This document shows positions 9,005 to 42,414 of a DNA stretch of 64,000 bases, piece after piece. Made by a program: the position numbers and the translations under genes. The stretch is from Flavobacteriaceae bacterium (GTDB lineage: Bacteria > Bacteroidota > Bacteroidia > Flavobacteriales > Flavobacteriaceae), in NCBI GenBank assembly GCA_024638225.1, contig JAHEKR010000002.1, positions 27,798 through 91,797 of the forward strand. The letters are read 5' to 3'. Position 1 is the stretch's first letter, and every line of letters starts with the position of its first letter. The notes beneath the pieces were generated by a model. The model was not told the origin of the DNA. It saw only the letters and a list, made by a program, of their open reading frames with translations, and searched no databases.

Positions 9005-10042
9005 ATGTTAAGGCAACGGCTTTATTTTATTGATGCCCTTCGCGCCTTTGCTATTTTGATGATGCTGCAGGGCCATTTAATCAGTGGATTGCTTGACCCA
9101 TCGACCATTGACCCAAATCATTTTGTTTACCAATTGTGGTACTACTGCCGTGGATTTACCGCGCCCGTATTTTTTACAATCACGGGCTGGGTGTTTATGT
9201 TTTTGTTATTGCGAAATGGTGAATCCGGTTGGGCAAATCCAAGAGTCAAAAAAGGGCTAAAAAGAGCTGTTGAACTCATTCTTTGGGGATATGCACTTCG
9301 GCTATCTTTTGTCTACTTATTGTCTTCTGGAAAACTAACCAAAACCTTTATGCAACCCGATGTACTGCACATCATTGGGCTTGGGTTGGTGTTTTTGGTT
9401 GGTTCCTATCTTATTTTGCATAAACTTGGTAAAATAAATGCACTGGTTTTCTTTTTGATCACCGTAGCTGTCTTTTCAACCAATACCCTTTACACAGACA
9501 TCGTTTTTGATAGACTTCCCTATTTTATCGCAGCCTATTTAACCAAAGCAAACGGAGCTGTATTTTATATCCTTCCGTGGCTAGGATATGTAAGTTTTGG
9601 CGCGGGTATTGCCTATATCTTTCCTACGCAAACAAAGAAACTAAGGTTGTGGAGTCTTGCTTTTATCGCTACTGGGTTTGTGCTTTCTTTTCACAACCAA
9701 CTTTTTGGACAGCTTGGAGATACAGACTTTTTGTTTGTCCGTCTTGGCGATGTGCTGCTGCTATTTGGTTTTTTCATGCTTTTGGAGCCGTTGATTCGGC
9801 AAAGCTTATGGCAAAAAATCGGCACCAAAACCTTATCGCTCTATATTGTACACTACGTGATATTATACGGAAGTTTTACCAGCATTGGTCTGTATAAATT
9901 TTACAAAGAATCGCTTTCTTGGCAAGTAACCGTTGTTGGTGCACTTGGCTTTGTGGTTGGGATTACGGCAGTTGTGTTGCTTTATCCAATAACGCTAAAG
10001 CCTTGGGTTGGGCGGGTGAGGCGTGGTTTGGGGTTGAAGTGA
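9005..10042 (+). CDS. DUF1624 / heparan-alpha-glucosaminide acetyltransferase-like multi-pass membrane protein
   Basis: RLYFIDALRAFAILMMLQGHLISGLL and multiple hydrophobic segments. Confidence 0.75.
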   Translation: MLRQRLYFIDALRAFAILMMLQGHLISGLLDPSTIDPNHFVYQLWYYCRGFTAPVFFTITGWVFMFLLLRNGESGWANPRVKKGLKRAVELILWGYALRLSFVYLLSSGKLTKTFMQPDVLHIIGLGLVFLVGSYLILHKLGKINALVFFLITVAVFSTNTLYTDIVFDRLPYFIAAYLTKANGAVFYILPWLGYVSFGAGIAYIFPTQTKKLRLWSLAFIATGFVLSFHNQLFGQLGDTDFLFVRLGDVLLLFGFFMLLEPLIRQSLWQKIGTKTLSLYIVHYVILYGSFTSIGLYKFYKESLSWQVTVVGALGFVVGITAVVLLYPITLKPWVGRVRRGLGLK

Positions 10043-10112
10043 ATGGCGAATGTGATACTTTATGTGTTATTTTTTTGATCCGTAAAATTATATACAACGA
10101 TTTTCATATTTT

Positions 10113-10667
10113 TCATTCCGTCTTTATCCTCATCTTTTTCAGTTTTCCACGCTTGGAAAAATATTTAATTTTCAATTTCACACCTTCCTTTTTTAATAAA
10201 GCTTTTAGTTTCGGATAAGCTTCAATTCCATAGCCATTAATTGAGTTAATTTCCATGCCGTCTTCAATACCCTTTTTATCCAATTCGGAGTTTGGCTGTA
10301 CACTTTCAAAAAGCATTTTATTGCCTTCCCTATTTATTCTAAAGTCAGTGCACGGATACTCAAACTTACTGTTATTCAAACTGTTTGGTTCATAATATGC
10401 GGTTAATTCAGAATAATCAAAAATCCAATTATAACGATTCATTATACCATTTCCCAGAATACCCAATATGTTTGGGAAAGTATTGACGCCTTCCTTTGAT
10501 AGTGGAATAGAGATGGGGACATCTGTGTGGTTTTCCTGCATAAAATTTAAAGAAAGTAAGCTGCTTTCAAACAGTTCATCTTCTCCAGTTAACGTTTGGA
10601 ATGAGGCAATAACTTTGGGATCAAATACTTCTAGCAAATTGTTATCCCTCGTAATGTTACTATTCAA
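10113..10667 (-). pseudogene. C-terminal remnant of a retropepsin-like aspartyl protease with PDZ domain
   Basis: ILGNGIMNRYNWIFDYSELTAYYEP protease-like tail followed by PDZ-like region; no N-terminal half or signal peptide; starts next to the lpdA terminator. Confidence 0.55.
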
Positions 10668-10732: not shown

Positions 10733-12130
10733 CTACACGTGCAAGGCACGGTCTTCGGTAGCGGCTAGTGCTGCTTCTTTTACCGCTTCGGCATAGGTAG
10801 GGTGCGCATGGCTCATCCGTGCTACATCCTCGGCAGAGGCGCGGAATTCCATAGCCGTTACGGCTTCTGTAATCAGGTCGGAAGCTCGTGCGCCTATCAT
10901 GTGTGCGCCCAAGATTTCATCTGTTTCTGCGTGCGCTAATATTTTGATAAAACCATCTGTATCCATACTTGCTCTGGAACGTCCCAGCGCACGCATGGGG
11001 AATTGCCCTTTTTTGTAGGCAACTCCAGCAGCTTTAAGCTCTTCCTCCGTTTTGCCTACTGCAGCTACTTCTGGCCATGTGTAAATAACGTTTGGAATAA
11101 GGTTGTAGTCAATATGCGGTTTTTGTCCGGCAATAAACTCAGCGACCATGACGCCTTCTTCTTCGGCTTTGTGTGCCAACATGGCTCCTCGGACCACATC
11201 GCCAATGGCGTATATGTTTGGTGCTGCTTGAAGTTGATCGTTTACTTCTACCTGACCTTTGTCGTTGAGTACAATTCCAGCAGCTTCGGCATTAAGTCCA
11301 TTGGTGTAGGGCCTACGTCCAACAGAAACCAAACAGTAATCCCCTTCAAATGTCTGGGCTGCTCCTTTTTTGTCATTTGCCGTTACCGTTACCTTTTTTC
11401 CTTTGCGGCTTACAGCAGTAACTTGATGTGAGAGGTGAAATTTCACCCCTTGTTTTTTCATCACTTTCATCAATTCTTTAGAAAGTGCAGCATCCAGTAC
11501 CGGACTGATGCGAACGGCGTATTCAATGACGCTTACCTCAGCACCCAATCGGCGGTATACCTGTCCGAGTTCCAATCCAATAACACCTCCACCAATGACA
11601 ACGAGATGTTTGGGAATTTCAGAAAGCTCCAAGGCCTCTGTGGACGTAATGACACGTTCTTTGTCTAAGTCAATAAACGGCAGGCTGCCCGGCGTAGAGC
11701 CCGTGGCAATGATGGTCTTTTTTGCTTCAATCACTTGAGCATCTTTCCCTGTGATTTTAATATGGGTCGCGTCTTCAAAAGAACCCAATCCCCGAAGGAC
11801 AGTGATTTTGTTTTTATCCATCAGGTAATCAATACCCTTGACGGTTGTAGAAACTACTTCTCGCTTGCGGGCAATCATTTGCGGAAAATTGACCTCAATA
11901 GCACCTTTGACGTCTATACCGTGCTCGGCAAAGTCTTTTGTGGCTGTTTCGTAGTGATGCGAAGAATCTAAAAGAGATTTGGATGGAATACAACCCACAT
12001 TAAGGCAAGTACCTCCTAGTGTAGCTTCTTTTTCTATTAATGCTGTTTTCATGCCTAGTTGAGCACAACGAATGGCGGCAACATAGCCCCCAGGTCCAGA
12101 TCCAATAATGGCAACATCAAATTGATTCAT
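10733..12130 (-). CDS. lpdA: dihydrolipoyl dehydrogenase
   Basis: GGTCLNVGCIPSKSLL; full-length 465 aa. Confidence 0.97.
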   Translation of the reverse strand: MNQFDVAIIGSGPGGYVAAIRCAQLGMKTALIEKEATLGGTCLNVGCIPSKSLLDSSHHYETATKDFAEHGIDVKGAIEVNFPQMIARKREVVSTTVKGIDYLMDKNKITVLRGLGSFEDATHIKITGKDAQVIEAKKTIIATGSTPGSLPFIDLDKERVITSTEALELSEIPKHLVVIGGGVIGLELGQVYRRLGAEVSVIEYAVRISPVLDAALSKELMKVMKKQGVKFHLSHQVTAVSRKGKKVTVTANDKKGAAQTFEGDYCLVSVGRRPYTNGLNAEAAGIVLNDKGQVEVNDQLQAAPNIYAIGDVVRGAMLAHKAEEEGVMVAEFIAGQKPHIDYNLIPNVIYTWPEVAAVGKTEEELKAAGVAYKKGQFPMRALGRSRASMDTDGFIKILAHAETDEILGAHMIGARASDLITEAVTAMEFRASAEDVARMSHAHPTYAEAVKEAALAATEDRALHV

Positions 12131-40264: not shown

Positions 40265-40339
40265 CGGGGTGTAGCGTAGCCCGGTCATCGCGCCTGCTTT
40301 GGGAGCAGGAGGTCGCAGGTTCGAATCCTGCCACCCCGA
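40265..40339 (+). tRNA. tRNA-Pro (TGG anticodon)
   Basis: cggggtgtagcgtagcccggtcatcgcgcctgctttgggagcaggaggtcgcaggttcgaatcctgccaccccga; acceptor CGGGGTG/CACCCCG. Confidence 0.95.
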
Positions 40340-40341
40340 CA
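40321..40341 (+). repeat. attL-like direct repeat (3' end of tRNA-Pro)
   Basis: tcgaatcctgccaccccgaca, exact 21-bp copy at 42113-42133. Confidence 0.9.
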
Positions 40342-40350
40342 TAAAAAAAT

Positions 40351-40387
40351 ACCAATTAATTGATTTTCAATTGATTGGTTTTTTTTT
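40351..40387 (+). terminator. Hairpin plus T-tract downstream of tRNA-Pro (inside the island)
   Basis: CCAATTAATTGAttTTCAATTGATTGGTTTTTTTT. Confidence 0.6.
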
Positions 40388-40388
40388 G

Positions 40389-40407
40389 TGGGGAGTATTA
40401 CTCCCCA
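40389..40407. repeat. 19-bp palindrome, left island copy
   Basis: TGGGGAGTATTACTCCCCA. Confidence 0.9.
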
Positions 40408-40446
40408 AATCAACTAAAGTGGAGTAATTTATGGTAGGTTTTAATT

Positions 40447-40728
40447 CTAAATACGTTCCCATTTGTCAAAAAAATCTCCCCCCAATATTTCATTTCCTCT
40501 CAATATTAATGATTCAACATCATTTCCTTTGTATGAGTCAAGACCATCACTCACAAAACCGTATCCAGGGTTTGGATTATGAGTAAGTTTTACACACTCT
40601 AAAAACTTAAAAAATCGAGGGTCATCATCTTCAATTTCAAGTATAAACTCATCGTCTGAAACGTACGGTTCAAAACCTTCAATCTCAAGTTTACGGTGTA
40701 ATGAAAAATTATTATAATAGAATGTCAT
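40447..40728 (-). CDS. hypothetical acidic protein (island ORF A)
   Basis: ORF of 93 aa, no recognised domain. Confidence 0.5.
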   Translation of the reverse strand: MTFYYNNFSLHRKLEIEGFEPYVSDDEFILEIEDDDPRFFKFLECVKLTHNPNPGYGFVSDGLDSYKGNDVESLILRGNEILGGDFFDKWERI

Positions 40729-40780
40729 TTTTTAAATTTAAAATTTATTATTTAAAATTAAGAATTCAGATTTTGAATTC

Positions 40781-40821
40781 CAATCTACCTAGAATATAAT
40801 ATTTTACAACTTGTATACAGT
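40781..40821 (+). pseudogene. Fragment of a second GIY-YIG-like gene (C-terminal codons)
   Basis: 37/41 identity by eye to 41808-41848; reads IYLEYNILQLVYS vs TYLESNILQLIYS. Confidence 0.65.
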
Positions 40822-41028
40822 CTATTAACTACTCTAAAGTTCACAATTTTTTTCATAATAATTTTTTTTTATGTAAAATATACTTTTTCCTTAAAACCTT
40901 TGTAATTAACCGTTTAAAAATAAATTATATAACTCATCTTGAGTTTTTTCATTTTCGATTTCTTGAAGTGTATTAAAAATGAAGAGATGTTTTAAGGAAT
41001 AATTATTACATTTAAAAAAATTAAAAAA

Positions 41029-41406
41029 ATGGAAGTTATAAGAATTAAAATCACCAAGTTATTAAAACTAAATATAATTGAGGATATTCAAGAAGGACTA
41101 GATTATTTCAAATTTGTATGTTCATCAAAAATGAAAATTAATGATGAAGAAATTTTGTTTGAATTTACAGAGGAAGAGGGATCAGGAGGAAAACTTAGGT
41201 TACCAAATGATAATTATTCTTTGGAACTAGTAGAAACAGAAAATAATTTAAATCTCTGTGTTATTTTATACATATTTCAAACAGGTGGTTGGAAACATTA
41301 CCAAGAAATGAATATTGGAGATACTTGGGATCTTGAATTTGATAAAAAAACGTGGGATGAAGGTGGTGAAAATAGAGATTGGGGATACCTATCAGAACCA
41401 TACTAA
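41029..41406 (+). CDS. hypothetical protein (island ORF B)
   Basis: 125-aa ORF ending 1 nt before the GTG of the next ORF. Confidence 0.55.
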   Translation: MEVIRIKITKLLKLNIIEDIQEGLDYFKFVCSSKMKINDEEILFEFTEEEGSGGKLRLPNDNYSLELVETENNLNLCVILYIFQTGGWKHYQEMNIGDTWDLEFDKKTWDEGGENRDWGYLSEPY

Positions 41407-41407
41407 A

Positions 41408-41887
41408 GTGTTAGAACACATAAAAAATAAATTTATCTCTGATTATGAAGTTAGTTGGTCTTTTTCAATATCAATTAATGATTTTTATAAAAAGAACAAT
41501 CGATTAAATTACAATTCTATAATAAGGGAAAATATTCCTAGAAAAAACACTCATGGAGTATACTTGATAAGTGACTCAAATTCTAAAACTATTCTTTATG
41601 TCGGTATGTCAGGTCAAATAAAGAAATCAGATGACGGAAAGTATAAGAATTGTGGTTATGATATTAGAAAACGGTTAGTTTCCTCAAGGGGTAGAGATGA
41701 TGAAGGAAAGGATATTAGTTCTTCAGATTATTTTCAATTAATAATGGAAAGAGAAAAAATTCAGTCAATTTCGATTACAATACTCCAAACTAGTAATAAA
41801 ATCTCTCCAACCTACTTAGAATCTAATATTTTACAACTTATATACAGTAAAACCAATTCTTTACCTCAGTGGAACAATTCATTTTAA
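41408..41887 (+). CDS. GIY-YIG-like domain protein (island ORF C)
   Basis: HGVYLISDSNSKTILYVGMSGQIKK...YDIRKRLVSS...MEREKI...PTYLESNILQLIYS; upstream in-frame ORF extension to 41315 overlaps ORF B, so GTG at 41408 preferred. Confidence 0.65.
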   Translation: MLEHIKNKFISDYEVSWSFSISINDFYKKNNRLNYNSIIRENIPRKNTHGVYLISDSNSKTILYVGMSGQIKKSDDGKYKNCGYDIRKRLVSSRGRDDEGKDISSSDYFQLIMEREKIQSISITILQTSNKISPTYLESNILQLIYSKTNSLPQWNNSF

Positions 41888-42027
41888 AAATCAATATATA
41901 AAATCCTTGAAATTATTTTATGAAATATTTTAGAATCAGATTTTCTTATTATACTTTTACCGTTAGATTCAAAATCTACAAGTTCATTGAAAGTATTGGA
42001 AATTTAGGAAAACCACGATCTGATTCG

Positions 42028-42046
42028 TGGGGAGTAATACTCCCCA
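42028..42046. repeat. 19-bp palindrome, right island copy
   Basis: TGGGGAGTAATACTCCCCA; reverse complement of the left copy. Confidence 0.9.
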
Positions 42047-42112
42047 AATTTTCATTATTTTATAGATACTAAGTTGGGAAACCCTTGATAATGAGGGTTT
42101 TAAGTAGGGAGA

Positions 42113-42133
42113 TCGAATCCTGCCACCCCGACA
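42113..42133 (+). repeat. attR-like direct repeat (copy of tRNA-Pro 3' end)
   Basis: tcgaatcctgccaccccgaca without the rest of a tRNA. Confidence 0.9.
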
Positions 42134-42158
42134 AAAAAATTACCTGGTTATTAACCAA

Positions 42159-42232
42159 CGGGATGTGGCGCAGCCTGGTAGCGCACACGCATGGGGTGCG
42201 TGGGGTCGCAGGTTCAAATCCTGTCATCCCGA
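42159..42232 (+). tRNA. tRNA-Pro (GGG anticodon)
   Basis: cgggatgtggcgcagcctggtagcgcacacgcatggggtgcgtggggtcgcaggttcaaatcctgtcatcccga; acceptor CGGGATG/CATCCCG. Confidence 0.93.
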
Positions 42233-42414
42233 CAATTTTTTTATACAATCCTTACGCAGCCTGGAAGCGCATCCCGATAAATCGGGAGGGTTGTGTGCTA
42301 AAAGTCATCTTTACAGTAATATAGACTAACCAATAAAGCCTATTGTTGAGCACAAAGACAATTCATGCATTTGATCAAAAATATAATAGCTGGCAAAGAA
42401 GCTCCGTGTAGGTA

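Follow-up and report, generated by a model that had tools for sequence, protein, structure and literature searches.

The locus described here lies in a 64-kb window, the whole stretch of DNA that was analysed, within contig C25 of a draft genome (1.48 Mb, 80% complete, 65 contigs) that, judging from its relatives, belongs to a bacterium of the family Flavobacteriaceae (Bacteroidota) with a reduced genome. It was found that a tRNA-Pro(TGG) gene on the plus strand at 40265-40340 (ARAGORN; Rfam RF00005, 69 bits) shares its sequence from the T-loop to the 3′ end, plus one base, with a second site downstream. The exact 21-bp repeat, TCGAATCCTGCCACCCCGACA, occupies 40321-40341 (the left core, attL) and 42113-42133 (the right core, attR), both on the plus strand, and the expectation from shuffled sequences is 0.00. 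The initial annotation had reported this recurrence, and the repeat is real; the tRNA gene does not end together with it as was claimed, since the gene stops at 40340 and the repeat runs one base past it. Likewise, the size of 1792 bp given there for the enclosed unit holds as the start-to-start distance, while the DNA between the copies amounts to 1771 bp. Only these two copies exist in the assembly of this genome, even when one mismatch is allowed. A third match in the window, with three mismatches, is the end of a genuine tRNA-Pro(GGG) gene (42159-42233, plus strand; ARAGORN and synteny), which is the neighbour of tRNA-Pro(TGG) in congeners. The two tRNAs were the only real matches in an Rfam scan. 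As had also been stated, no tRNA body precedes the right copy; the 70 bp ahead of it have no likeness to a tRNA (P = 0.7 against shuffles). The locus thus has an intact tRNA gene and a displaced 3′ fragment in the same orientation at the ends of an island, which is the arrangement used by Islander. The island is indeed much richer in AT than its neighbours, with a GC content of 0.267, while stretches of equal length in the window average 0.409 (sd 0.027). A terminator-like hairpin is predicted by a consensus scan at 40351-40379 (plus strand), just past the tRNA gene on the island side.

Both ends of the island carry a nearly identical 26-bp repeat that contains a perfect palindrome (TTYGTGGGGAGTAWTACTCCCCAAAT). 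The left repeat lies at 40385-40410, 44-69 bp inside the left core, and the right repeat at 42024-42049, 63-89 bp inside the right core; neither is assigned to a strand. Palindromes had been alluded to earlier, and the repeat search located them at these positions. The alignment of the left and right ends scores 42, while the maximum among shuffles is 28. No other GC-rich perfect palindrome with arms of 8 bp or more occurs in the 64-kb window, and the palindrome was not found elsewhere in 18 genomes of the genus or in viral contigs. Are they ordinary terminators? The scan flags the right one only, with a poor T run, and their near-identity and positions suit end sites better. The two repeats are candidate arm-type sites for an integrase, in which case the island keeps its cis-acting sites.

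Three small ORFs were expected inside the island and were found there: a 93-aa orphan on the minus strand (40447-40728), a 125-aa orphan on the plus strand (41029-41406), and a predicted gene of about 160 codons for a GIY-YIG-like nuclease, also on the plus strand (41408-41887). The frame of the last is open from an ATG at 41357, and its GTG start at 41408 was deduced from the length of homologs; with this start, the 125-aa ORF ends one base upstream of the gene. The 93-aa ORF is on the strand opposite to this pair, and about 300 bp without a gene separates it from the 125-aa ORF. None of the ORFs matches a Pfam, NCBIfam, PHROGs, or PADLOC family above the cut-off. A tblastn search of the island with ORFs from the integrase loci of the same genome was empty as well, in agreement with the earlier statement that no integrase, relaxase, or transposase is present. 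No relative of the 93-aa ORF was found in 395 genomes of the class or in the other collections searched. The single match of the 125-aa ORF, a marginal one to the frame of a thioredoxin-like lipoprotein (E 8e-4, 25% identity), was not accepted as homology.

The third protein has relatives in two genomes (57% in G109 and 34% in G167), and HGVY, YVGMSG, R, ES, and N are conserved among the three homologs. These correspond to the GIY and YIG motifs and the later Arg, Glu, and Asn residues, which have catalytic roles in nucleases of this kind. The two homologs match the Pfam GIY-YIG family with E-values of 0.003 and 0.014, below the curated cut-off, and the window protein gives no match. Its structure model has a pLDDT of 73.5, with no significant match in a PDB fold search; the model of the 125-aa protein is poor (57.0). 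From the motifs and the weak Pfam matches of the homologs, with no confirmation from the fold search, the protein is designated GIY-YIG-like. Of a second GIY-YIG gene, a C-terminal relic is left at 40780-40836 (plus strand; in frame, 63% over 19 aa), and it shows that DNA was deleted from the unit at some earlier time. The 125-aa ORF and the GIY-YIG-like gene probably form a selfish or defence-type pair. The closest relative, that of G109, sits in a mobile island of a Flavobacteriales MAG that abuts the 3′ end of glmS (L085 4196-11442, about 7-8 kb) and carries two serine recombinases, one a large serine recombinase of 580 aa and the other a resolvase of 204 aa. The initial annotation had suggested searching for the GIY-YIG gene at other tRNA ends; an alignment scan of the genome collection gave two loci, neither of which adjoins a tRNA. 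No relatives of the unit or its genes were found in phages (where the search at the protein level covered the GIY-YIG gene only), plasmids, viral contigs, or relatives' genomes, the short matches resembling chance matches of AT-rich DNA. Nor was a second copy of the whole unit found in any collection searched, which counts against the explanation preferred below.

Is the site empty in other species of the genus? The 1.8-kb insert is absent from all 17 congeners compared. In the genus, the tRNA-Pro(TGG) and tRNA-Pro(GGG) genes are adjacent and lie between trxB and a udk-like gene, and the core genes flanking the island follow the same order as in congeners. In 11 of the 17 congeners, both tRNA genes are on one contig, 12-214 bp apart. 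The gap is 62-63 bp in three of them (G016, G012, and G006), about 12-27 bp in three others (G004, G017, and G002), and about 70-214 bp, with a short fill, in the remaining five (G008, G009, G010, G014, and G015). The contig breaks at tRNA-Pro(TGG) in G001, G003, G007, and G011, while the gap is still readable and short in G003 and G011. A tRNA-Arg-like sequence follows tRNA-Pro(TGG) instead in G013, and the locus was not recovered in G005. The content of the gap varies among these congeners, which are different species from that of the window. In the window, the 25-bp spacer from the right repeat to tRNA-Pro(GGG) (42134-42158, plus strand; CTGGTTATTAACCAACGGG) aligns with the native spacer CTGGTTTTTAACCAACGGG of G008. 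The island therefore extends on this side as far as the right 21-mer, which forms its border. The comparison with empty sites, which the initial annotation had proposed, bears out the integration reading: congeners have a short, joined gap with no insert. Since the flanks of the congeners have only about 72-78% DNA identity to the window (at well-covered loci), the insertion cannot be dated.

The right 21-mer might also be the end of an ancestral tandem tRNA that has decayed, the DNA between the copies having been inserted by another process. Decayed tRNA-Pro copies do occur in the same gap in G009, G011, G015, and other congeners. These copies retain similarity to the D-arm and the anticodon arm (P = 0.000, 0.006, and 0.008 against shuffles for the three tested), while their T-loop is changed. 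In contrast, the window copy has the reverse pattern, an exact sequence from the T-loop to the 3′ end with nothing tRNA-like upstream, and tandem decay leaves the paired end palindromes unexplained. A decayed tandem tRNA, which had been named earlier as the finding that would overturn the integration reading, is therefore improbable. Some decayed tRNA-Pro-like copies have an anticodon arm turned into a CCCGATnnAATCGGG hairpin, and some of these have an inserted TTTAAACTTAGCGAAGCGGTCTCACGACC segment. The hairpin copies lie between the tRNA-Pro genes in L012, L017, L018, L019, and L080, and at about 42255-42300 in the window, downstream of tRNA-Pro(GGG). In the genus, copies of this type cluster at the tRNA-Pro locus only.

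Autonomous islands with the same core were found elsewhere in the family. G593 has a 17.3-kb island at tRNA-Pro(TGG) and G740 an 81-kb interval at the same gene; each ends in TTCGAATCCTGCCACCCCGACA, with no tRNA body attached, and encodes directly beside the tRNA a protein of 418-427 aa with Arm-DNA-bind_5, SAM-like, and Phage_integrase domains. Their core extends from the T-loop to the 3′ end as in the window island, and the T-loop is one of three subsites recognised for tRNA islands (PMC4383910). In G761, a 10.7-kb island has a repeat that begins earlier, near the anticodon, and its integrase is at the opposite end. Repeats common to both ends at similar positions were found in G593 (P 0.003 for direct repeats, and above all shuffles for inverted ones) and in G761 (above all shuffles), while those of G740 fall short of significance (P = 0.14). 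Shared end repeats are therefore significant in two of the three comparison islands, with sequences that differ from the window palindromes. In summary, the islands of G593 and G740 resemble the window island in the T-loop core and in having repeats near both ends, and differ from it in the integrase gene next to the tRNA and in the sequence of the end repeats. The cargo of the G593 island (L093 1135-18430) resembles peptide export genes (ABC-transporter-like, secretion-like, and glycosyltransferase-like). A displaced end of the T-loop type was found again on an IMG/VR provirus contig (L101). This 96-kb contig, IMGVR_UViG_2839242338_000001, has displaced tRNA-Pro ends of both the anticodon type and the T-loop type (L100 and L101), which suggests tandem islands at one tRNA. 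Two further sets of candidates were set aside: viral contigs of 3.7-3.9 kb that contain the 21-mer differ in their tRNA-like body, carry phage-like genes, and are not mini-elements, and close 20-mer pairs in G685 and G464 belong to full tandem tRNAs.

The genome of the window was also searched for a helper integrase. In its assembly, which is 80% complete and may thus lack a fifth of the genome, there are three tyrosine recombinase genes; none is of the tRNA-Pro type or closely similar to it. Two of the frames, of 299-309 aa, have the size of XerC/D. The third encodes 347 aa on contig C28, next to a sequence that resembles tRNA-Met and is damaged at its 5′ end. At this locus (L082), the tRNA-Met-like sequence is at 9500-9580 and the integrase gene at 9620-10663, with ACTGCCAGTA repeats in between; the tRNA-Met-like sequence resembles a displaced end, as if a further tRNA island were present here. 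The 3′ tail of the integrase gene (about 10600-10663) recurs about 1 kb downstream, at 11585-11650, after a cargo gene. This parallels the GIY-YIG tail in the window island, and relics of gene tails may be frequent in islands of this sort.

I put the probability at roughly 0.8 that 40342-42133 is a small genomic island that was integrated at tRNA-Pro(TGG) by a tyrosine integrase and is now integrase-less, so that movement in trans needs a helper. This explanation is preferred because of the exact repeat, the empty congeners, the end palindromes, the GC contrast, the GIY-YIG relative in a mobile island, and the relic. Against it count the lack of a tRNA-Pro-type integrase in the genome's own assembly and the end repeats of the comparison islands, which differ in sequence and, in G740, are not significant. 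The footprint of site-specific integration at a tRNA 3′ end, which the initial annotation had recognised, is upheld by the empty congeners, the native spacer on the right, the lack of a tRNA body, and the core of the family's autonomous islands. Judging from this footprint, the T-loop subsite of tRNA-Pro(TGG) would have been the target of a tyrosine integrase. The tRNA gene would have recombined with a 21-bp copy of its own end carried by the element, which would have restored the gene at 40265-40340 and left the displaced end at 42113-42133. The island would then retain only cis-acting sites, namely the two cores and the palindrome pair as presumed arm-type sites, together with its three small genes. 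To leave the tRNA-Pro site or re-enter it, the unit would require a compatible integrase from another element, and movement in trans is possible. In view of the relic of a second GIY-YIG gene, the unit most probably originated by deletion from a larger tRNA-Pro island; deletion in place and deletion before the unit arrived have about equal weight.

If the deletion occurred in place, the locus is what remains of a larger autonomous island that lost its integrase and most of its cargo and is now immobile. I give this branch of the preferred explanation somewhat less than an even chance. The GIY-YIG relic, the geneless stretch between the 93-aa and 125-aa ORFs, and the failure to find a helper integrase in the genome's own assembly all fit it, and CIMEs have been described as arising in this way (PMC5704250). 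On the other hand, the cores are identical, both palindromes are intact, the three ORFs are open, and tblastn revealed no remaining integrase fragment. It is less likely, though with an appreciable chance, that the unit is a gene-carrying, MITE-like miniature that has kept only a tRNA core and a pair of palindromic arm sites and is inserted and excised in trans by the tyrosine integrases of unrelated islands. Two other accounts were considered. The assembler might have linked the insert to the chromosome through the 21-bp repeat, as the draft consists of 65 contigs and several congener contigs break at tRNA-Pro(TGG). However, the flanking core genes are in congener order, the ends of the insert are structured like those of an integrated element, and even a false join would still require a tRNA end on the element; such an artefact is quite unlikely. 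Less credible still is an ancestral insert that was lost in every sampled congener. The distance of these congeners leaves the timing undated, but this scenario requires many independent losses. It also sits badly with two cores that have stayed identical, with the strong GC contrast, and with the absence of the island genes, distant relatives of the GIY-YIG gene aside, from the 395 genomes of the class.

The window island is a clean, small case of an island at a tRNA in a reduced genome that has cis-acting sites only. A survey of the Islander type would miss it and similar units, as it requires an integrase gene and a length of 2 kb or more. Should units of this sort move in trans, counts of gene flow into small-genome bacteria are too low, and the pair of palindromes is a concrete handle in the search for the helper integrase. 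If the unit is only a remnant, the island is ordinary.

How does the island compare with known systems? It had been proposed as the best candidate for an undescribed system. This is not supported, since integrase-less CIMEs flanked by att sites and small cassettes with repeats of tRNA 3′ ends have already been described (PMC5704250, PMC10872708, PMC7771536). The island is best classed as an integrase-less member of the CIME or additive-island-cassette kind. A CIME is a cis-mobilizable element, a decayed ICE or IME that has lost its integration and transfer genes and kept attL and attR; by definition it derives from an ICE or IME and is cis-mobilizable after accretion (PMC5704250). The window island resembles CIMEs in its att cores at both ends, its location at a tRNA 3′ end, and its lack of integrase and transfer genes, while it is much smaller and has no ICE or IME gene as a trace of origin. 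Islander requires an integrase gene inside the interval and a length of 2 kb to 200 kb (PMC4383910). The window island has no integrase gene and is 1.77-1.79 kb long, and thus is not an active island of the Islander type. MITEs (PMC11389934) are similar in being miniature elements that lack a recombinase gene and have matched palindromes at their ends. In contrast to them, the window island carries genes, is present in a single copy, is site-specific at a tRNA, and agrees better with a tyrosine integrase than with a transposase. Tycheposons, described via PMC10872708 as cargo elements of 4-200 kb at tRNAs with a tyrosine recombinase, resemble it in placing their cargo at a tRNA and in occurring in aquatic bacteria with small genomes; as far as that description goes, an island of less than 2 kb without a recombinase is not one of them. 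According to the parts of the two reports considered here, small-genome aquatic bacteria have islands of 330 bp or more, ahead of which the last 20 bp of a tRNA are repeated (PMC10872708), and 'Ca. Actinomarinales' have cassettes that are bounded by tRNAs (PMC7771536). These additive flexible-genomic-island cassettes, as portrayed there, resemble the window island in their small size, uncharacterised genes, repeat of about the last 20 bp, and reduced genome. Their content differs at one site between close strains. They form an expanding array, while the window island is a single compact cassette in the sample, and its matched palindromic end repeats have no counterpart mentioned in those parts of PMC10872708 and PMC7771536.
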